Shown: positions 2 through 52,115 of the stretch, in pieces
How positions within the stretch are numbered: position 1 is the first letter of the stretch
How the letters are laid out: every line of letters begins with the position of its first letter
IMG/VR virus record: IMGVR_UViG_3300010354_000121
Coordinates: 1 to 53,542 of that record
From: a virus
Strand: one strand, 5' to 3'
Length of the DNA: 53,542 nucleotides
The notes under the pieces: generated by a model
What the model saw: only the letters and a program-made list of their open reading frames with translations
What the model was told of the DNA's origin: nothing
The model's database searches: none
Position numbers and translations under genes: made by a program

Positions 2-2401
2 ATCCCTATATCATCTAAAATTGGGGCTATACAGAAAGTCAAGAAATTAGATATTGGTTTTGATTATAATATTGATTATACCATAAGACCAAAAATAAAT
101 GCTCTTAAAATTGCAAAAGTGGAAGTATTTTATCAATTAGATTATATTGATGTTATTTCTAGAGGAGTAAATTATACATTTAGTCCAAACATAATATTAA
201 TTGATTCAAACACCAGAGAAAAATATGATGTAGATTTAATTTATCAATCAGAAGAGAATAAAGTTGTTATTTTTAAAAATACTACGAAAATTAAAAATAA
301 TGATTTAGAAGTTATTGCTACAAATAATGATAATGGATTTGAGATTAATACCTTAACATATAATCCAACCACAAGAAGAGTAACAGTTGAGTTAGCAACT
401 CCTTTCAATAATATTTCTGAATATCCTTTTAGTGTTGGAGAATCTGTTTACATTGAAAATACCATAGTTGGGGTTTCTTCAAGGGGATATAATTCTAGTG
501 CATATGGATATAATTCTTTTGAGATACTTGAATCAACTCCAAATATTGGTGGAATTGGGGCAACATTTACCTATAGCCTAGAAGATTATCTCGATGTTGG
601 TGAAGACCCAGGAGCATTAGATAATTTTTATACTTCAGGTTTTGCAATAGCCAAAAAATATTTACCAGAATTTTCTATTAAAATTGAGCCGAATCAATTC
701 TCGGTAGGAGAGGATTTTGAGTCAAATAGCGGAACCTTTGGTAAAATAGTTTCATGGACTCCAGAAAATAATACTGTTAGATTATCGACCACAGGGAAGA
801 TTAACAACAATGATATTATTTTTGGTAAAAATAGTGGAGCCTATTTAAAGGTAATCGATGTTTACTCTACAAATGGTTATATTGATATTTCCTCGAATTC
901 AGTTGTTGAAAGGGGTTGGAGAGATAAAACAGGTTTCTTAAATGATTCACTTCAAAGGATTCATGATAATAATTATTATCAATATTTTTCTTATGATTTA
1001 AAATCTGAAATTGATTATTCTAATTGGTCTGATCTAGTTGATTCTTTGAATCACACTGCCGGATTTAAGAAATTCGGAACTTTATTAGTCAATACAACCA
1101 ATGAAAATGTAGGCATTGGTACCGATCAAAATCTAGGTGATGTTGAAATAATAAATGATTTATATTCAGTCTTAGACGTTAATTGTGTAAGCGATTTTGA
1201 TCTTGTTACTGAAAATTATTTCTCAATTGATAGTGAATTAAGATCTAATGAAATCTATTTTAATTCCAGAAGACTACAGGATTACATTGAATCTATTGGC
1301 AATAAAGTATTGATTATAGATGATATCGCTAATAGATTTACTCCAGTTGCTCCAATAGAAAACTCTATAATTGATAAATTTAAACTTAACGCAATAAGAT
1401 TTAAAAAATATGTTATTCAGGTAACTGATAAGTTAGAACCAGAAAATACTCATTCTCAAATAATTAATTTGCTTCACGATAATAATGAAGTCTCGATTAA
1501 TCAATTTTCAGTGATAGAAACTATTGATGAGTTGGGTTATTTTGATGCGGAAAGGAAAAATTTTGATATAAATTTATTATTTTATCCATTTGAGACATCA
1601 AATAAAATATATTCAGTCAACAGTTTTTCCTTTAATATTAGTGATAGTGATGATAATATTGGAAATACTCAACTTGGTAATACTATAGATATAAACTCTA
1701 GTTTTGTAACTGGAATAGGGACCACAACTATTTGTTCAATTTCAACCGATAAATCGGCCGCAAAAGTAATACTTGTATTTTCCGATAAACAAAATGGTAA
1801 TTTTTATTCAGATGAAATAAATTACATTCATAATGGAAGTTCTATTGTTTATAATTCTTATGGTGAATTGAACATGGGAAATACCGTTGGCATAGGAACA
1901 TATAATTTATATTATTCGGATGGAAACATAAATATTGATTTAACCCCATTTGAACAAAATGACTTTGTAGTAAATTCAATTGCAGTAGAATTTGATAAAA
2001 CTGCAACCACGGTTGATTCCCTATTTTTAAGTGGTAATTTATTGGAATCCTCTTATGTTGGGATAGCAACAACAGGAACCCCCTCAAAATCACTAATTTA
2101 TTCCCATAATATTGACTATACTTCTGGTCTTCATCATTTAGTAATAACTGATACTGATAATAATATAATCAATTCAGTAGAAATTTTAGGTATATTAAAT
2201 ATTACAAACCAGGATGTTTATTCTGTAAAATTTGGTAATTTGAGTACAGGAAGTGAATTAGGTGAAATTGATGTTGAATACTCAAATGTTGACGGTAGTT
2301 TTGAGATTTATTTTACTCCAAATAACGATATTAATTATGAGGTAAAAATTTTTAGTACATTAATTTCAAAATTCAGGAGATCTGAAACAGTAGAGTTATG
2401 A
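2..2401 (+). CDS. Large virion structural protein, upstream half of a split gene; 5' end outside the window
   Basis: The frame is open from base 2, so the true start lies to the left; the GTG at 119 is only an internal codon. The product resembles long baseplate/tail-fibre-like structural proteins of T4-like cyanophages, from memory of that family. The last ~335 codons (from the IRFKKY motif near 1397) are three tandem beta-rich repeats of about 80-110 residues, each with a KKY/AKV start, an LLH or NYI centre and an FxP end. The same block recurs at the end of the gene starting at 15977. The gene ends in ATGA, overlapping the next ORF by 4 nt in the -1 frame. In related phages the two ORFs appear to be one continuous protein, so this is probably one polypeptide chain made in two parts. 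No enzymatic motif is visible. Function as virion component is inferred from position before gp8. Confidence 0.7.
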   Translation: MPISSKIGAIQKVKKLDIGFDYNIDYTIRPKINALKIAKVEVFYQLDYIDVISRGVNYTFSPNIILIDSNTREKYDVDLIYQSEENKVVIFKNTTKIKNNDLEVIATNNDNGFEINTLTYNPTTRRVTVELATPFNNISEYPFSVGESVYIENTIVGVSSRGYNSSAYGYNSFEILESTPNIGGIGATFTYSLEDYLDVGEDPGALDNFYTSGFAIAKKYLPEFSIKIEPNQFSVGEDFESNSGTFGKIVSWTPENNTVRLSTTGKINNNDIIFGKNSGAYLKVIDVYSTNGYIDISSNSVVERGWRDKTGFLNDSLQRIHDNNYYQYFSYDLKSEIDYSNWSDLVDSLNHTAGFKKFGTLLVNTTNENVGIGTDQNLGDVEIINDLYSVLDVNCVSDFDLVTENYFSIDSELRSNEIYFNSRRLQDYIESIGNKVLIIDDIANRFTPVAPIENSIIDKFKLNAIRFKKYVIQVTDKLEPENTHSQIINLLHDNNEVSINQFSVIETIDELGYFDAERKNFDINLLFYPFETSNKIYSVNSFSFNISDSDDNIGNTQLGNTIDINSSFVTGIGTTTICSISTDKSAAKVILVFSDKQNGNFYSDEINYIHNGSSIVYNSYGELNMGNTVGIGTYNLYYSDGNINIDLTPFEQNDFVVNSIAVEFDKTATTVDSLFLSGNLLESSYVGIATTGTPSKSLIYSHNIDYTSGLHHLVITDTDNNIINSVEILGILNITNQDVYSVKFGNLSTGSELGEIDVEYSNVDGSFEIYFTPNNDINYEVKIFSTLISKFRRSETVEL

Positions 2402-2436
2402 GCAATATTTCTTTTTCAAGCGGATACGGAGAATAT
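1397..2436 (+). repeat. Diverged duplicate module, copy 1 (three beta-rich repeats plus ATGA restart)
   Basis: This stretch encodes about 334 codons from IRFKKY to a stop, then the ATGA restart and the peptide MSNISFSSGYGEY. It matches, by eye along its whole length, the segment 16823-17865 (IRFKKY ... stop, then MSNISFSSNYAEY). Shared landmarks in order are IRFKKY, LL.L.H, a Y.SFSF motif, SAAKV, EINYI, GIGTY, ES.YVG, LIYS, SGLH, and FTP near the end. Identity is moderate, so the copying is old and not an assembly artefact. Confidence 0.8.
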
Positions 2437-5400
2437 ACAAGTGGTGAATTTTTTAAATCCGCCGCATTTGAAATAACCTCTAATGGATTTTTTATTTTTT
2501 CTAGGGAATTTCTATCAAATTCACCTAAATTTGTTAATTTAAGTGAAAATTCTTTTGATTTCACTCAACATAGTTTTGTTACTGGTGAGGAATTAGTTTA
2601 TGACTATCCTAAAAATAATATAACAATTCCTATTGGCATTGTAACCACTACAATTTCAGGGGTTTCTACTGATATCCTACCTAAAACTCTTTATGCTGTT
2701 AAACAGGATTTTTCTACACTTAAAGTTGCAGCAACAAAAGCAAATGCTTTATTGCCAGAACCAATAACATTAAATTTAAGGAGTTATGGTAAAGGAACAC
2801 ATAAAATATATTCTAAAAATCCAAATTTAAATTCTTTAATTACAATAAACAATATTATTCAAGAACCAATAGTTTCCACTTCCGTAACTACCTCCACAAC
2901 CCAATCTATTATAACAAGTGATCTTTCTGTTACTGTTGAAAATCCTGATGTATTAACAGGTGGTGATTTTATTCAGGTTAATAATGAGATAATGCGGGTT
3001 TTATCTGTTGGAATTGGGTCTACTAATAATATTTTTATCGAAAGATCCTTGCTTGGAACAGATCCTGGCATCCACGGTCAAAATTCCCTAATCACCAAAG
3101 TTAGAGGAAATTACAATATCATAGAAAATTTTATTCATTTTGTTGTTTCTCCTTATGGTAATAGTTTTGATCCAGAAAGCGGATTGACCAATTCTTCCAC
3201 ATTTAGTGGAAGGGTATTTCTAAGATCCGGAAAAGAAAGTACAACTATTGGCCCCTATGATAATAACTTTATTTTTGATTATATTTCAGAATCTTTTACC
3301 GGCAAAGATTCGACATTCACCTTAAAAAATAAGTCAAATAATGTAGTAGGTATTTCTACTGATAATGCAATTGTAACCATAAATGATGTCTTTCAGCCGC
3401 CATCAAGACTTTCTGGTAATGTTATAAATGGTGCATACACATTATCCGAAAATGTTGGAATTACTTCTATAATTTTTAATGGCAATCCATCTTTTCCTGA
3501 TTATGATGTTAATATTTCAGAATACCCAAGAGGAGGAATTATTCTTTCTGTTGGATCCACCGAAGGTTTTGGTTATCAGCCATTGATTTCTGCCGGCGGA
3601 ACCGCAATTGTATCGACTGCCGGAACTATTCAATCAATATCCATTGGCTATAGTGGATCTGGTTATAGATCAGGAATTCAGACTGTTAATGTTGGTGTCG
3701 GTTATAGCGATGTTGTTGGCTTTGACCTAGAAAAAATTGGTACAGCATCAATATCAAATGGTATTATTGTTGGAGTTAGCATAACAAATCCTGGTTCTGG
3801 ATATACAAATACAAATCCACCAAATGTTTATTTTGATGCACCTCTCTCTTATGACAATCTTCCTCTAATTTATTCTAGTGGTTCGTCTGGATTAGGAACA
3901 GGGGCAAAAATTAGCGTTATCGTGGGGCAAGGTTCTAGTGTAATAAATTTTGAACTTACAAATCTAGGTTTTGGTTATGAAAAAGGAGAAATTTTAACTA
4001 TACCCATTGGAGGGACTACTGGAATCCCCACAACTTCTAATTTTAAACAATTTGAAGTTAAAATAGATTCAATTTTCAACGATGATTCTAGTGTCAGGAC
4101 AATAGGTCAACTTATTATTATAGATCCAATTGATTCATTGTTTGACGGGAAAAGGAAATCGTTTCCACTAAGAATAAATGGAGAACAAACGGCAATTTTA
4201 AGCCGAATTGGCTCTGATCTTAATGTAGAAAATAATCTACTAATTTTTATTGATACGGTTCTCCAAGTTCCAACTGAAGCGTATAGTTTTAGGGGCGGAA
4301 GCATTATAACATTTAAAGAGGCTCCTATTAAAGGATCAAAATCAACTATTTTATTCTATGCTGGGACAGAAGGTGTTGATACGAAATTAGTCAATGTTTT
4401 GAAGACGGTTAAAATCGGGGATTACCTACAAATTTTTGATAATACTGATAGGCAAGATGATCAAAACCCAAGATCAGTATCAGATATTTTATCCGTAGAT
4501 ATTGTTAAAACAAATCTATATGATAAACAAGGTATTTCGGATCAAGATGAAATAAGACCTGTAAAATGGTGTCCTCAAAATGTTGATAGATTTGTTATAG
4601 GTTCTGGGTCAACAATTAGTACAATAGTAACAAAAGATCGTGAAATTTATGAATCATTCATTAGGCCATTCGCTTTTGTTATTTCTGGCATTGGAAGTAC
4701 ATCTAGTGAAATATTTGTAGACAATGTAAAAACATTTTTTGATAATGCAAATGAATCTCTTGTCGTTAATAGTATCAATATAATCTCGCAGATACCTCAA
4801 TCACCGGCAAAATTAACTGCAAATGTATCATTGGCCGGAACAATACAATCCATTCAAATTGAGTCTGTTGGTCAAGGATATTTTGAGCCCCCTAAAATCA
4901 GAGTATCAAATCCGGTTGGTCTAGGAACAACTGCAATATTGACATGTTCACTCAATTCTTCTGGTGGAATTTCAACGGTAAATATTATTAATGCCGGGTC
5001 TGGTTACACTGGACCACAACCTTTGGTGATTGTTGAGGAGCCAACACAAATTATAGAATCTGCTTCTGATGTTTCTTATGAAGGTGATTTTGGAATTATT
5101 GTTGGAGTCGGAACAACAACTGTTGGAGCATATTTTGATCTCTTTATTGAAGAAGATTCTTATCTAAGGGACTCTTCAATTAATTCAGTCGGAGCCGCAA
5201 TAACTGGCCCAAGTGGAATCTCAAATAATTATTATTTTTATGTTTCAAATAGTAACGTTGGAAATGGCCTGACTTCCTTGAATATTTCAGATCAACCTAT
5301 TGGCATTGGCACAACATTTATTGACAATGTTTATCAAGTAAATTCATGGAGTATTGTCCAACGAAATATAGTCGGGGTCGGGACGACTTTTGTGAAGAGA

Positions 5401-5598
5401 GTTAATGTTAAAGTAGGAAATAATTCTTCTCTTGTAGGTATTTCGGCTACTGCATATTATGGGGATTATAGTTGGGGTAGAGTTTATAACGTATCAAAAT
5501 CAGGCATTTCTACATTCCAGGCATATGCACCTGGAATTACCACCTCTACTATAATACAAAGAAGTGTTCCTTTAAAATTTGTAAATTATCTCAACTAA
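2398..5598 (+). CDS. Large virion structural protein, downstream half of the split gene
   Basis: This 1066-residue protein starts on the A of ATGA shared with the upstream stop, so translation is probably by termination-reinitiation; only a weak AGGAG lies 18 nt upstream. It begins MSNISFSSGYGEY and then a stretch with a TGEELVY motif that I associate with long cyanophage tail structural proteins. It carries several copies of a short beta motif of the type GSGYxxPPxV (near residues 418, 465, 828 and 867), shared with gp8, the DUF4815 protein and gp14 in this window. A QVNNE...ERSLLGT segment (near residue 190) resembles parts of gp15 and of the DUF4815 protein. No signal peptide or catalytic motif is seen. 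Likely a baseplate or fibre component; exact T4 counterpart uncertain. Confidence 0.7.
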   Translation: MSNISFSSGYGEYTSGEFFKSAAFEITSNGFFIFSREFLSNSPKFVNLSENSFDFTQHSFVTGEELVYDYPKNNITIPIGIVTTTISGVSTDILPKTLYAVKQDFSTLKVAATKANALLPEPITLNLRSYGKGTHKIYSKNPNLNSLITINNIIQEPIVSTSVTTSTTQSIITSDLSVTVENPDVLTGGDFIQVNNEIMRVLSVGIGSTNNIFIERSLLGTDPGIHGQNSLITKVRGNYNIIENFIHFVVSPYGNSFDPESGLTNSSTFSGRVFLRSGKESTTIGPYDNNFIFDYISESFTGKDSTFTLKNKSNNVVGISTDNAIVTINDVFQPPSRLSGNVINGAYTLSENVGITSIIFNGNPSFPDYDVNISEYPRGGIILSVGSTEGFGYQPLISAGGTAIVSTAGTIQSISIGYSGSGYRSGIQTVNVGVGYSDVVGFDLEKIGTASISNGIIVGVSITNPGSGYTNTNPPNVYFDAPLSYDNLPLIYSSGSSGLGTGAKISVIVGQGSSVINFELTNLGFGYEKGEILTIPIGGTTGIPTTSNFKQFEVKIDSIFNDDSSVRTIGQLIIIDPIDSLFDGKRKSFPLRINGEQTAILSRIGSDLNVENNLLIFIDTVLQVPTEAYSFRGGSIITFKEAPIKGSKSTILFYAGTEGVDTKLVNVLKTVKIGDYLQIFDNTDRQDDQNPRSVSDILSVDIVKTNLYDKQGISDQDEIRPVKWCPQNVDRFVIGSGSTISTIVTKDREIYESFIRPFAFVISGIGSTSSEIFVDNVKTFFDNANESLVVNSINIISQIPQSPAKLTANVSLAGTIQSIQIESVGQGYFEPPKIRVSNPVGLGTTAILTCSLNSSGGISTVNIINAGSGYTGPQPLVIVEEPTQIIESASDVSYEGDFGIIVGVGTTTVGAYFDLFIEEDSYLRDSSINSVGAAITGPSGISNNYYFYVSNSNVGNGLTSLNISDQPIGIGTTFIDNVYQVNSWSIVQRNIVGVGTTFVKRVNVKVGNNSSLVGISATAYYGDYSWGRVYNVSKSGISTFQAYAPGITTSTIIQRSVPLKFVNYLN

Positions 5599-15976: not shown

Positions 15977-17830
15977 ATGTTAAATCCATTCTTCCTCAAT
16001 GGATCCACCACAGAACAAAATCTTATAAATGACCTAGTAAAAGAGGCCATTCAAATTCATGGTGTAGATGTTTATTATCTTCCTAGAGAATACGTCACAA
16101 AAAGAACAGTAATAAGAGAAGTAATTGAGTCTAAATTTAGTAATGCCTTTCCTTTAGAGGCATATATCGATACTTATGAAGGGTATGAGGGAGCCGGGGT
16201 CCTTTTAAGTAAATTTGGTATTCAACCAAGTACTGATATTACTCTTATTATTTCAAAAGAAAGATATGAAACACATATTACTCCATTAATCAAAAATATC
16301 CCAAACATAAAACTTTCAGATAGACCGAAAGAAGGCGATCTAATTTGGTTTCCTTTAGGTGATCGTTTGTTTGAAATAAAATTTATTGAACATGAAATTC
16401 CTTTTTATCAATTACAAAAAACCTATGTTTATAATCTAAAATGTGAGTTATTTAGATATCAAGATGAGATTATTGCTACTAATATTGACTTTATTGATGA
16501 TAATACTAAGGATCAGGGTTATACCGAATTTTATAATATGCTTGCAAGGGGCGAACAGGCTTCTGCAATTACAAGTCTTGAAGATTGCGGAGTAAGATAT
16601 GTAACAGTAACAAAAAGAGGAGTATATTCATCTACACCAACTGTCAATTTCCCACAATCTCCGGAAGGTATAACTGCAACTGGAGTTGCAAGAATGATCT
16701 CTGGTATTGTTGATTTATGTGAACCAGATGAATCTAAATTAAGGGTTCAAGCAGTTGATATAATTAATCCCGGTTCTGGGTACTGTGGTGCGGTTATTGA
16801 CTCTTTTGATAAATCTTTAATTAGATTTAAAAAATATTTAATCCACGTTAATAATAATTCAGATCCTAATAAAACACAAAACTTACTTTTAAATTTGATA
16901 CACAATAATGGCGATATTATTGTCAATAATCAATATGGATTAGGCTATTCTCAAGTAAATTTGGGTAATTTTAGTGGCAGAATGGTTGATTCAAGAATAA
17001 ATCTTATTTTTTCGCCATTTGATGTTTCGTCTACTTATTCAATTAATAGTTTTTCTTTTGATATTAATGATTCTGATACAACAGTTGGCAATATTTCTTT
17101 AGGGGATGTAGTAAAAATTAATTCTTCTAATGTTTCTGGTGAAGAAAATAAAACTATAATAAAAATTCCTAATACAAAATCCGCAGCAAAAGTTTTAATT
17201 GTTTATTCGGATTTAATTAACAATAAATTTTATTCCGAAGAAATAAATTATATACAAGATGGGGTTGATATATTATATAATACATATGGAAGTTTAGATA
17301 TAAATAAACCATCTGGAATAGGGACTTATGCATTAACATATGATGGTCCTGATATTAATATTGAATTTTATCCAGACGAGAATACTGAATTTAATATAAA
17401 TGTTCTTTCTATTGAAATATCAGATTTATCTGCCACCTCGACAGGCACTTTGATTTTAAGTGGTAGTAGAATAGAATCTACTTATGTTGGAGTTAATTCC
17501 TCTGGCTCACCCCAAAAAACTCTAATTTATTCATATAATAATAATTTTAATTCTGGTTTACATCAAATATTAATTGAAACTGAAAGTAATAATAATATAA
17601 ATTATTCAGAGGTTTTAACCCTATTAAATAGTTCAAATAAATCTGTAAATTCAGTAGAATTTGGCAAGTTAAATCTTCGTGGTGAAATTGGCATAATAGA
17701 AACTGAGTATTTACCTTCAACTAATACATTAGAAATGTATTTTACCCCATATCAAGATATAGATTATCAGGTAAGAATATGTAGTATTTTGACTTCAACC
17801 AATAAAAGGTCAGAAATTTTATCAATATGA
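15977..17830 (+). CDS. 14: Neck protein gp14, N-terminal part fused to a duplicated beta-repeat module
   Basis: Residues 1-~272 are a cyanophage-type gp14: MLNPFFLNGSTTEQNLI, YLPREYVTKRTVIREVIESKF, AYIDTYEGYEGAG, DRPKEGDLIWFPLGDRLFEI, YVYNLKCELFRYQDE and an INPGSGYCGA beta motif. From about residue 275 to 617 the sequence switches to the module also found at 1397-2436, with three ~80-110-residue repeats. It ends in ATGA, where the next ORF restarts. The gp14 homology resumes in that next ORF. Normal gp14 in this phage group is one protein of roughly 300-400 residues, so this gene is interrupted. Whether the two parts reassemble in the neck is unknown. The fusion seems tolerated because both frames are intact and the module is diverged. 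Confidence 0.85.
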   Translation: MLNPFFLNGSTTEQNLINDLVKEAIQIHGVDVYYLPREYVTKRTVIREVIESKFSNAFPLEAYIDTYEGYEGAGVLLSKFGIQPSTDITLIISKERYETHITPLIKNIPNIKLSDRPKEGDLIWFPLGDRLFEIKFIEHEIPFYQLQKTYVYNLKCELFRYQDEIIATNIDFIDDNTKDQGYTEFYNMLARGEQASAITSLEDCGVRYVTVTKRGVYSSTPTVNFPQSPEGITATGVARMISGIVDLCEPDESKLRVQAVDIINPGSGYCGAVIDSFDKSLIRFKKYLIHVNNNSDPNKTQNLLLNLIHNNGDIIVNNQYGLGYSQVNLGNFSGRMVDSRINLIFSPFDVSSTYSINSFSFDINDSDTTVGNISLGDVVKINSSNVSGEENKTIIKIPNTKSAAKVLIVYSDLINNKFYSEEINYIQDGVDILYNTYGSLDINKPSGIGTYALTYDGPDINIEFYPDENTEFNINVLSIEISDLSATSTGTLILSGSRIESTYVGVNSSGSPQKTLIYSYNNNFNSGLHQILIETESNNNINYSEVLTLLNSSNKSVNSVEFGKLNLRGEIGIIETEYLPSTNTLEMYFTPYQDIDYQVRICSILTSTNKRSEILSI

Positions 17831-17865
17831 GTAATATTTCATTTTCATCTAATTATGCGGAATAT
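16823..17865 (+). repeat. Diverged duplicate module, copy 2 (inserted in gene 14)
   Basis: About 335 codons from IRFKKY to the stop, then ATGA and MSNISFSSNYAEY. It is the counterpart of 1397-2436, of nearly equal length and with the same stop/start overlap. The flanks on both sides belong to gp14, so this copy is the insert. Confidence 0.8.
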
Positions 17866-18465
17866 AATGATTATTCTAAGTTCTCTATTTCTTTTACTGG
17901 AGGAGATGGTTCTGGGGCAGAAGCTTTTCCTACAATAGGTGAAGGAATTATTGGAATAATAACAGTAACTAATGGTGGTTCTGGTTATTTATCGCCCCCA
18001 GAAATTTCTTTTGTTGGAGTTGCAGAATCATCAGCAAAAGCAGTATCTGTTATTTCTAATGGTTCGGTTTCTCAAATAAGAATTTTAGATGCTGGTTCTG
18101 GATATACAGAAGTTCCTCAAATAGTTATAGGTGCTCCTTATGTTTCTGGATTTGGTACATATATTTTTAATGAAGAGGTTGTAGGTAGTGCCTCTAGTAT
18201 GACTGCCAGAGTAAAAGACTGGAACACACAGACGCTAATACTACAGCTATCTAATATCTCTGGACCATTTATTCCAGGTGAATTAATTATTGGTCAGCAA
18301 TCTGGGGCTAGTTATCAGATTATTTCTGGAAATCGATTAACAACAATTGACGAGAAAATTGAAGACAGTATTGTTACTAATGGGTTTACTCAAAATGATG
18401 ATATTCAGATAGCTGCCAATGAAATACTTGACTTTAGTGAAAGAAACCCATTTGGAGTACCATAA
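17827..18465 (+). CDS. 14: Neck protein gp14, C-terminal part translated from an ATGA restart
   Basis: This 212-residue ORF begins MSNISFSSNYAEY, which belongs to the inserted module, and from about residue 24 (SISFTGGDGSG) continues gp14. Typical gp14 features follow: TVTNGGSGYLSPPEISF, DAGSGYTEVPQIVIG, GTYIFNEEVVGSASSMTARV, GPFIPGELIIGQQSGA and the C-terminal end DFSERNPFGVP. The start overlaps the stop of the upstream ORF by 4 nt in the -1 frame, so coupled reinitiation is the simplest route. No clear -1 slippery heptamer was found before the overlap. The end overlaps the gp15 start (TAATG). Confidence 0.8.
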   Translation: MSNISFSSNYAEYNDYSKFSISFTGGDGSGAEAFPTIGEGIIGIITVTNGGSGYLSPPEISFVGVAESSAKAVSVISNGSVSQIRILDAGSGYTEVPQIVIGAPYVSGFGTYIFNEEVVGSASSMTARVKDWNTQTLILQLSNISGPFIPGELIIGQQSGASYQIISGNRLTTIDEKIEDSIVTNGFTQNDDIQIAANEILDFSERNPFGVP

Positions 18466-21673: not shown

Positions 21674-23764
21674 ATGTCTGATACAAATCATTACATGGGA
21701 AATCCGTTATTGAAACGGGCAAATATTCCCAGTGAATTTACACAAGAGCAATTAGTAGAATTAGCAAAATGTGCGGCTGATCCCGTGTATTTTGCTAAAA
21801 ATTATATTAAAATTGTTAACATCGATGATGGCCTTGTATCATTTGATATGTGGCCTTTTCAAGAAAAGATGCTTACTACTTTTCATGAAAATAGATTTAG
21901 TATTTGTAAACTTCCCCGTCAGCCGCTAGAAGATAATACCCCAATCCCGACTCCTAGTGGTTATAAAAAAATTAAAGATCTAAAAATAAATGACATTGTT
22001 TATGATTTATATGGAAAGAAAACAAAAGTCATAAACAAAGTAAGTTATAAAAATACCGAAAAATGTTATAAACTTTCTTTTAAAGGAAAAATATTTGAAG
22101 AAAAAATTTTTTGTGATAAGGATCACTTCTGGAGAGTATATTTTGACAATACTTGCCAAGTATTGACTACAGAGCAAATTTATAATTTAAAAAAAGAAAT
22201 TTTCTTAAAAAGACAATCGTTTAATACATTAGTTGATAATTGGGGCGAAGTAATAAAATTAGTATCAATAGAAGAAATTGAGCCCGTAAATGTTTCGTGT
22301 GTTGAAATAGAAAATAAGGACCATTCTTTTTTATGTGGTAAGAATTTTATACCCACGATGAACTGCGGAAAAAGCACCACGGCGGTATCATTCCTTCTAC
22401 ACTACGCAATTTTCAATGATAATGTCTCTATTGCTATTCTTGCAAACAAGGCATCAACAGCAAAAGATCTACTAGGAAGACTACAAGTATCTTTTGAAAA
22501 CCTTCCTAACTGGATGCAACAAGGTATTAAATCATGGAATAAAACGTCATTAGAACTTGAAAATGGATCAAAAATTATAACCGCATCAACTTCAGCATCT
22601 TCTGTTCGGGGGGGTTCTTATAATGTTATCTTCTTGGACGAATTTGCGTTCGTACCAAATAATGTGGCATTGAATTTTATGAATTCGGTTTATCCCACTA
22701 TTTCTTCTGGTAAAGACTCAAAAGTTATAGTTGTATCAACCCCAAATTCGCTTAATCATTTCTATAAAATGTGGGATGATGCTATAAAAAAAGAAAATGA
22801 TTATGTTCCACTAGAAATTAACTGGAATGACGTTCCTGGAAGAGACGAAGAATGGAGAAAGAAAACTATTGCAAACCTAGGCTCTGAGAAAGCCTTCGAC
22901 CAGGAATTCAACTGTTCTTTCCTCGGATCATCAGACACTTTAATTTCTGGAGCAAAACTCCAAACAATGGTACATAATAAACCAATAAAATCTAAAAAAT
23001 TTCTTGATACTTATGAAGAGCCAATAGAAGAACATCAATACATGATAACCGTTGACGTTGCAAGAGGCGTTGATCTTGACTATTCGGCATTTACTGTTAT
23101 TGACATAACCAAAATGCCTTATAAAATGGTAGCAAAATACCGGGACAACACAATCAAACCGATTATGTTCCCCTATATTGTCAAAGATGTTGGGCTCCAT
23201 TATAATAAGGCCTTTGTTTTATGTGAGACAAATGACGTTGGAGATCAGGTTGCCAATGCCCTTCATTATGACCTCCAATACCCCAATCTACTTACCTGTT
23301 TTATTAAAGGAAGACAGGGGCAAGTTTTAGGTCAGGGTTTTGGTGGAAATCGAGTTGAGTATGGCGTTAAGATGTCTAAAAACGTCAAAAAACTAGGCTC
23401 GATCAACCTAAAAATGTTAATCGAAGAAGATAAACTATTAATCAATGATTACGACACGATTAATGAATTATCGACATTTATTCAAAAATCTAATTCTTTT
23501 ATGGCCGAGGAAGGCAAAAATGATGACCTTGTTGCTTGTTTGATCCTATTTGCCTGGGCCTCAACAAACGAGTACTTCAAAGAAATCACCGATGATGATA
23601 TTAGAAAAAGACTATTCCAAGAAAAACAGGCCAATGAAGAGAACGATATGCTCCCAATTGGGTTCTTAGAAAACGGTCTACAAGAAGAAACATTTGTAGA
23701 AGAAGATAAACTTTGGCATGTTGTTTCTAATGAAGAACTAGCCACCCTTTGGAATTTCTATTAA
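21674..23764 (+). CDS. 17: Large terminase subunit gp17 with an in-frame intein
   Basis: The protein is 696 residues; without the intein (residues 84-230) it is 549, the usual size for cyanophage gp17. It is the ATP-driven packaging motor and headful nuclease. The P-loop reads LPRQ (80-83), then intein, then CGKST (231-235). Walker B is VIFLDEF with D322/E323. The nuclease domain begins with TVDVARG (D461) and is followed by a LCETNDVGDQ motif. The intein must be spliced out for ATPase activity because it splits the P-loop. Only a weak ribosome site precedes the ATG. The leader holds one arm of a long inverted repeat. Confidence 0.95.
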   Translation: MSDTNHYMGNPLLKRANIPSEFTQEQLVELAKCAADPVYFAKNYIKIVNIDDGLVSFDMWPFQEKMLTTFHENRFSICKLPRQPLEDNTPIPTPSGYKKIKDLKINDIVYDLYGKKTKVINKVSYKNTEKCYKLSFKGKIFEEKIFCDKDHFWRVYFDNTCQVLTTEQIYNLKKEIFLKRQSFNTLVDNWGEVIKLVSIEEIEPVNVSCVEIENKDHSFLCGKNFIPTMNCGKSTTAVSFLLHYAIFNDNVSIAILANKASTAKDLLGRLQVSFENLPNWMQQGIKSWNKTSLELENGSKIITASTSASSVRGGSYNVIFLDEFAFVPNNVALNFMNSVYPTISSGKDSKVIVVSTPNSLNHFYKMWDDAIKKENDYVPLEINWNDVPGRDEEWRKKTIANLGSEKAFDQEFNCSFLGSSDTLISGAKLQTMVHNKPIKSKKFLDTYEEPIEEHQYMITVDVARGVDLDYSAFTVIDITKMPYKMVAKYRDNTIKPIMFPYIVKDVGLHYNKAFVLCETNDVGDQVANALHYDLQYPNLLTCFIKGRQGQVLGQGFGGNRVEYGVKMSKNVKKLGSINLKMLIEEDKLLINDYDTINELSTFIQKSNSFMAEEGKNDDLVACLILFAWASTNEYFKEITDDDIRKRLFQEKQANEENDMLPIGFLENGLQEETFVEEDKLWHVVSNEELATLWNFY
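21923..22363 (+). mobile_element. Class 3-like mini-intein (147 aa) in the gp17 P-loop
   Basis: The insert runs from P84 (LEDNTPIPTPSGYKKI follows, an intein block A) to N230 before C231. Block B is FCDKDHFW with His68 and Trp70 of the intein. Block F is VSCVEIENKDHSFLCG with Cys126. Block G is NFIPTMN with Thr145 and terminal Asn147. The first residue is Pro, not Cys or Ser, and the Trp/Cys/Thr positions match the WCT triplet that defines class 3 inteins, in which the block F Cys starts splicing. The penultimate residue is Met, not His. The +1 residue is Cys. At 147 residues it has no room for a homing endonuclease. Confidence 0.88.
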
Positions 23765-51188: not shown

Positions 51189-52115
51189 ATGTGTAGACTA
51201 AACGAACGCACCCATAAGCATCATATCATTCCAAGATACATGGGTGGAAGCAATGAGCCAAAAAATCTTGTTAAAGTAACAGTAACTCAACATGCCATGT
51301 TCCACTTCTGTAATTACCAATTATGGGGTAATGAAGAAGATAGAATAGCATGGAGAGCTTTATCTGGTCAGATAACCATGGATGAGATCAAATTAGAAGC
51401 CCAGTCTTTAAATGGCAAAAGAAATAGCCAAAAACAGAAAGAGAATGGAACTGGAATTTTTGGACTAACATTAGAGCAAAGAATTGAAGCTGGCAAAAAA
51501 GGAGGACAAATACATAAAGAAAATGGAACTGGAATTTGTGGACTAACTTATGAACAGAGAAGGGAAATAGGTAAAAGAACAAACCAAAAATGTAAAAAAA
51601 ATGGTACCGCATTTTATGGTATGAGTCCAGAAAAAAGATCGGAAAATGGTAAAAAGGGGGCCGAAGTAAATAGACAAAATGGAACTGGGATTTTCGGACT
51701 GACGCCAGAACAAAAAATAGAACGTAGTAGAAAGTCGGGTCAAAAAACATATGAAGACGGTATTGGAATTCACGGAATGGATCTAGAAGAAAGAGTTGAA
51801 GTCTGCAAAAAAGGAGGAAAAAAAGGCGGAAAAATAGTCTCTTCCCAAAAATGGCAATGCACAGTAACTGGACATGTTTCTAATGCAGGAGGACTTTCTA
51901 GATTTCAAAAAGCTAAGGGGATCGACACATCGAATAGAATAAAAATAGATGGACCTAGAAGTTGGGAAATTACTTTTGAAGATGGTAGAGTTGTTGTTAC
52001 TAATTGTTTATCTACTTGGGCCAAAGAAAACGGCTATAAGTATGTTAATATCCATAGTGTACGGATAGGAAACTCTTCAAATTACCAGGGAATCGTAAAA
52101 GTAGTTCCATTCTAA
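51189..52115 (+). CDS. HNH homing endonuclease with repeated DNA-binding motifs
   Basis: The 308-residue protein has an N-terminal HNH core (HKHHIIPRYMGGSNEPKNLV, then VTVTQHAMFHFCNYQLWG). From residue ~82 to ~205 a unit of about 29-31 residues is repeated about five times (NGTGIFGLTLEQRIEAGKKG type). A KWQCTVTGHVSNAGGLSRFQ segment and a C-terminal part (FEDGRVVVTNCLSTWAKENG) follow, the latter like the end of the GIY-YIG protein. A free-standing homing endonuclease is the best guess. It separates regA from hsp20, which are usually near neighbours in cyanophages, so it is probably an insertion. Confidence 0.85.
   Translation: MCRLNERTHKHHIIPRYMGGSNEPKNLVKVTVTQHAMFHFCNYQLWGNEEDRIAWRALSGQITMDEIKLEAQSLNGKRNSQKQKENGTGIFGLTLEQRIEAGKKGGQIHKENGTGICGLTYEQRREIGKRTNQKCKKNGTAFYGMSPEKRSENGKKGAEVNRQNGTGIFGLTPEQKIERSRKSGQKTYEDGIGIHGMDLEERVEVCKKGGKKGGKIVSSQKWQCTVTGHVSNAGGLSRFQKAKGIDTSNRIKIDGPRSWEITFEDGRVVVTNCLSTWAKENGYKYVNIHSVRIGNSSNYQGIVKVVPF

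Follow-up and report, generated by a model that had tools for sequence, protein, structure and literature searches.

The gp14 neck gene of a T4-like cyanophage is interrupted by ~1.1 kb of gp7, the gene of the baseplate wedge initiator, derived from another virus lineage, and the inserted piece carries the stop and restart at which gp7 is itself divided in two. We consider it quite probable that gp7 was split long ago, that a piece of split gp7 was later transferred into a gp14 and reached this phage within an imported gp14 tract, and that the second half of each gene is made by translational reinitiation. The window, i.e., the whole stretch of DNA analysed here, spans 53.5 kb of an IMG/VR record, and its genes are arranged as in T4-like cyanophages. 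Among named phages it is closest to Synechococcus phage B23 (Kyanoviridae; MN695335), and the host is, judging from relatives, probably a cyanobacterium. The baseplate genes are ordered as in B23 and S-SM2, with gp7 directly upstream of gp8. The closest contig, G013, agrees in gene order apart from the gp14 insert, and its proteins are 97% (gp13), 93% (gp15), and 82% and 78% (the two gp14 halves) identical to those of the window; the proteins of the gp17 region and gp19 likewise share 80-84%, low identity thus not being unique to gp14. This contig (82%) came from a later search, the initial gp14 search having returned at least 80 loci, with a best identity of 68% among those listed.

Two observations concern other parts of the window. 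The terminase large subunit gene (21674-23764) displays an intein-like stretch (LEDNTPIPTPSGYKKIKDL ... FIPTMN, then CGKS) at the Walker A motif, which we read from the letters as a putative intein; Pfam returned terminase domains only for this protein. At the terminase position of G013 lies an ORF of 1473 codons, i.e., a larger insert. In addition, a direct repeat of ~71 bases, with copies 82% identical and 7 bases apart, is located at 51413-51561.

The split genes and their shared module

The left end of the window holds gp7 in two pieces, both on the plus strand. Of the first half, gp7a, the C-terminal 799 codons lie at 2-2401, the 5' end being outside the window, and the second half, gp7b (1066 amino acids (aa)), lies at 2398-5598; the two meet in an ATGA overlap at 2398-2401. 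Both match the baseplate wedge subunit family phrog_2885 (E 5e-124 over gp7a residues 4-782; E 4e-219 for gp7b, with residues 448-1061 as the best stretch), tblastn likewise links the gene to annotated gp7, and the halves are 53.5% and 57.7% identical to gp7a and gp7b of B23, which is annotated with two overlapping gp7 coding sequences (CDS; 134445/134442). In S-SM2, gp7 is one CDS running from 63546 to 76016. A preliminary description of this DNA had held that the family is otherwise one chain with the module inside, and this is borne out by 14 loci with a recognisable module (S-SM2 and 13 others) in which module and gp7b lie in a single ORF. Whether the module always ends in ATGA and MSNISFSS, a question put up for testing in that description, is answered in the negative by the same 14 continuous gp7s, where the module occurs without a split.

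A split gp7 with ATGA was found in all 16 members of the B23 clade seen (the window, B23, and 14 contigs including L108 and L183), several of the 14 contigs being near-identical and representing about seven lineages. The split or continuous state was judged for loci with a recognisable module and for four named ones. Of the 14 loci that a module search of viral_contigs gave, 12 are split gp7s, and the other two match weakly within a different protein. The module tree and the tree of the preceding region each divide split from continuous gp7s with 100/100 support, as expected for one fission, and we read the split as old and ancestral to the B23-like clade, which forms part of our best explanation. 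By our reading of the alignment, the residues at the cut correspond to LDFTN in the continuous proteins (L146, 352-356), and these fall within 344-386 of the L146 model, a region of low confidence that follows immediately on the third beta-sandwich. This hints at a linker at the cut site, the mean pLDDT of the whole L146 model being 71. In the ancestor of the B23 clade, a frame-changing indel in this linker may have split gp7 with no visible loss of residues, giving gp7a and gp7b with their ATGA overlap.

The second split gene, also on the plus strand, is gp14 (head closure Hc2, neck). Its first half, gp14a (15977-17830, 617 aa), consists of the neck core, GSGY-type repeats, and the module, and matches PF11649 (T4_neck-protein, E 6e-33) over residues 1-177. 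The conserved core (codons 1-168, 15977-16480) is 97% identical to that of G013, and T4 gp14 (PDB 9mkb) matches at residues 2-166 only (E 7e-27); as this match ends upstream of the insert, the neck core is untouched. The second half, gp14b (17827-18465, 212 aa), comprises a restart peptide, GSGY-type repeats, and the C-terminal part of gp14, matches phrog_460 (head closure Hc2, E 4e-31), and is 58% identical to residues 278-468 of B23 gp14. The halves meet in ATGA at 17827-17830 and lie in different frames, whereas gp14 of the relatives is a single chain; for example, B23 gp14, of 468 aa, aligns to gp14a (residues 1-277) and gp14b (20-212) without module or restart. The insert itself (~1.1 kb, 16784-17892) spans the gp7-type module, the stop/restart, and the first ~13-17 gp7b-type codons, and has no counterpart in the gp14s of B23, S-SM2, and relatives.

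Among 106 gp14 rows, in which some contigs are counted twice (e.g., L101 and L013 are the same contig, as are L102 and L011), 99 are one ORF, five are ended by contig ends, and two, the window and L202, are in two ORFs; the module occurs in no row other than that of the window. The earlier claim that a block with its own stop and restart sits inside gp14 is thus supported, the gp14s of relatives being largely uninterrupted. Of 13 split-gp7 records, eight hold gp14, which is complete and uninterrupted in six and ended by the contig end in two. The gp14 of L196 is intact as well, a shared sample number being the only tie of this contig to the phage of L012. The insertion is known from a single metagenomic contig, and the collections may omit records very near the window. 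In L202 (reverse strand, ~1426-2801), gp14 changes frame near residue 160 with no module, which may be a sequencing error. Finally, single-ORF gp14s of 842-855 aa in L019 (125-2689), L073 (from 1476), and L093 (from 1330) are enlarged by many extra GSGY-type repeats between the neck core and the C-terminal part, the same region that received the insert in the window.

The gp7 copy of the module (1364-2398) and the gp14 copy (16790-17827), both on the plus strand, are homologous. BLASTP of the two ORFs aligns 155/348 identical residues (45%, E 4e-95), far from chance similarity, in agreement with the initial matching of 1397-2436 to 16823-17865. The homology begins ~11 codons upstream of those starts, at 1364 and 16790, and a recount from 1397 and 16823 to the respective stop confirms the 334 and 335 codons given earlier. 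Nucleotide identity between the copies is 59.9%, and blastn finds one patch of 86 bases only. As described before, both copies end alike, in a TGA/ATG overlap followed by MSNISFSS-x-Y-x-EY. The motif ATGAG-AAY-RTH-Ser-Phe-Ser is found at exactly two sites in the window, 2398 and 17827, and twice in none of 100 shuffled windows (mean 0.00).

Origin of the gp14 insert

Sequence comparison places the source of the gp14 module in another virus lineage like that of L010 and L012, and not in the phage's own gp7. The module is 61.9% identical to that of L012 gp7 and 60.6% to that of L010 gp7, compared with 45-50% for other gp7s of the clade, and of 99 bases around the junction, 81 are the same in L012 and 64 in the window's own gp7. 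In the trees, which leave out L007, L015, L108 (partial), L112, and L113, the gp14 module groups beside L010 and L012 with support of 99/98, and the approximately unbiased (AU) test rejects a position outside all clade gp7s (p-AU 0.0026). Owing to its long end branch (0.51), the exact position beside L010 and L012 carries less certainty than the rejection of the phage's own copy. The transfer would have brought ~1.1 kb of an L010/L012-like split gp7, i.e., three beta-sandwich domains, the stop/restart, and the first ~13-17 gp7b codons, into the GSGY-repeat part of a gp14 by non-homologous recombination. One gp14 would have become gp14a, with neck core and module, and gp14b, with the C-terminal part, gp14a retaining the part equivalent to T4 gp14. 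The place of this first insertion is a guess, a gp14 of the L010/L012 lineage not being among the sequences seen.

Divergence is unusually high in the regions flanking the insert. The left flank, consisting of GSGY-type repeats (16481-16783), shares 59% of aa and 40% of 4-fold sites with G013, and the right flank (17893-18150) shares 64% and 35%. While 256 of 272 residues in the ends of gp14 are identical to G013, the middle retains 115 of 187, and the loss does not extend beyond the repeats that surround the insert; G013 and G009 are mutually 90-100% identical in this middle. With tract borders set after viewing the alignment, 25 of 67 4-fold sites are identical in the middle versus 50 of 85 in the ends (Fisher p 0.009), and the middle is also more diverged at these sites than the large neighbour gene of 2573 codons (p 8e-5). 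Among the compared gp14s, its best match reaches 62-66%. These comparisons suggest that the whole gp14 middle, module included, was probably imported via recombination in the conserved ends, and the window phage most likely received the insert within such a longer tract.

Divergence peaking right beside the insert would also fit a direct entry of the other phage's gp7 piece into this very gp14, with the neighbouring repeats then diverging fast as the split relaxed them and no longer tract involved. Likewise, no module-bearing gp14 is known elsewhere, and the dN between the gp14 module and L012 is about twice that between L010 and L012 with no larger dS. We regard direct entry as possible rather than likely, as the 4-fold sites of the flanks have diverged too, both against the gp14 ends and against the neighbour gene. 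Faster evolution after insertion could still be the source of part of the flank signal.

A bolder proposal, which we consider improbable, is that the gp7 linker and ATGA form a portable fission unit with its own coupled stop/start. If true, recombination that keeps the frame at the left border and enters the new one at the right would divide a virion gene into two subunits translated together, the first with a fibre-type domain attached, and structural genes would be split by transplanted boundaries, beyond point mutations. One junction pattern gave 19 loci in viral_contigs (10 gp7 and nine chance sites) and a second pattern gave 15 (14 gp7 and one chance site); neither scan revealed another gene with module and restart, the one known insertion being that in gp14. 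The earlier idea of a block that interrupts genes in general therefore gained no second example in these scans. In addition, viral_contigs searched with the gp14 module alone (six candidate stretches) and genome_contigs searched with the module alignment (47 candidates) yielded no relative.

An assembly chimera, in which gp7 reads of a co-occurring phage were joined into gp14, comes to mind since the source is a metagenomic virus contig known as assembled sequence, and near records may be missing from the collections. It would require two false joins, both preserving reading frames; moreover, no known gp7 exceeds 62% identity to the insert, the flanks of the insert are altered too, and the remaining gene order is as in G013, making such an artefact very unlikely. 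An equally slim chance is given to the block being a mobile element whose spread divides genes. Its entry into a second gene, together with an intact-looking gene boundary, would fit, but neither gp14a nor gp14b matches an endonuclease or intein family in Pfam or PHROG, and the junction patterns never occur in another gene of viral_contigs. An intein, intron, or homing-endonuclease insert was rejected as no such Pfam or PHROG family was found and the full length of the insert aligns to gp7.

That the gp14 copy arose by duplicating the phage's own gp7, as first proposed, would fit two copies that share module and junction on one contig, but has next to no probability left. The own gp7 is 44.5% identical to the gp14 module, below all 11 other split-clade gp7 modules compared, and AU tests reject placing the gp14 module beside the window gp7 and L006 (p-AU 2.7e-15) or with the window gp7, L006, L008, and L009 (p-AU 0.0028). 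Identity ranking, tree, and AU tests thus agree that the source was not the left copy. A later replacement of the own gp7 left no sign either, no break being found in gp7 against L006 and G013 (86-89% in the compared parts).

Translation and the module protein

Overlapping genes are common in the window: in a hand-picked list of close same-strand gene pairs, 6 of 19 have a 4-base overlap of the ATGA type, the commonest close junction, and gp16 and the next gene are one such pair. Both split genes display the 4-nt stop/start overlap of termination-reinitiation pairs. As ATGA junctions are ordinary here and no slippery heptamer (X XXY YYZ) was found in the possible -1 stretch of any of 16 junctions, gp7b and gp14b are most likely translated by ordinary termination-reinitiation. 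The ribosome would end gp14a at TGA and the same ribosome would restart at the overlapping ATG, the halves being made together. Neither ATG is preceded by a close Shine-Dalgarno motif, which counts against this explanation; AGGAG-like letters are seen ~22 bases upstream at some junctions. According to the available text of PMC10666635, the last 15 nt of the upstream gene are enough for termination-reinitiation in E. coli, and the junction signal is thus portable in principle. A programmed -1 frameshift that bypasses the stop and gives full-length gp7 and gp14 would suit the downstream frame, which is -1 and open for 12-27 bases before the ATG, but the missing heptamer and the conserved ATG and MSN start leave it hardly credible.

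The model of the gp14 module has a mean pLDDT of 89.8 and consists of strands throughout, which we read as three tandem beta-sandwiches, predicted for the gp7 copy as well. The third domain (residues 223-341) resembles the C-terminal domain of T4 gp9 (1qex) with Z 13.2 and rmsd 2.4 over 113 residues, at a Foldseek E of only 1.6e-3; Foldseek in PDB gave no match at E <= 0.001, and PDB searched by sequence with the module profile gave none. The resemblance is one of common fold, not common function. T4 gp9 is the long-tail-fibre connector, and single module domains match predicted tail-fibre-like proteins of cyanophages; our guess from the models is that the module may give the neck a domain for surface binding or fibre docking. 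By Nei-Gojobori or YN00 (Biopython), estimates that are only approximate once dS approaches or exceeds 1, the gp14 module has a dN of 0.26 and a dS of 0.79 against L012 gp7 (ratio ~0.33), compared with 0.12 and 1.10 between the L010 and L012 gp7 modules. The gp14 module looks to be under constraint, looser than in gp7, and owing to this constraint its protein is probably made and used.

Comparison with known systems

A literature search, thin on subscription papers, returned nothing on a split gp7 or on a gp7 module in gp14. The closest known parallel is the split gp7 of B23 (b23_0257/b23_0258, both annotated as "baseplate wedge initiator"), which resembles that of the window in split point, ATGA overlap, and MSNVSFS restart, whereas the B23 gp14 is intact at 468 aa and free of the module.

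Split phage genes have been tied to homing endonuclease insertions, e.g., nrdA of Aeh1, the T4 topoisomerase, and gene 43, in the available text of PMC2988022. As in those cases, one coding region has become two polypeptides that need to work together, but the insert in the window is coding sequence of a virion protein without an endonuclease. The junction shares its 4-nt overlap with the pairs for which termination-reinitiation at ATGA is described in the accessible parts of PMC6728339 and PMC10666635. Those are natural gene pairs, whereas in the window the boundary was copied into another gene.

Finally, domain shuffling is described for structural proteins of phages, neck proteins being named among the recent cases in the available text of PMC10684548. 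Here, too, a block is common to proteins of different function and recent enough to be traced; the block in the window, in addition, brought a gene boundary with it and thereby turned a single gene into two, a feature unmentioned in the text available. The window case is one of domain shuffling in which a gene boundary travelled with the domains. Here, a single traceable step gave the recipient gene a module and cut it in two; the case offers a concrete test of the portability of a termination-reinitiation junction, and a test of how a neck protein copes with manufacture in two pieces. With the source corrected, the boundary and its domains moved between phage lineages, not inside one genome.
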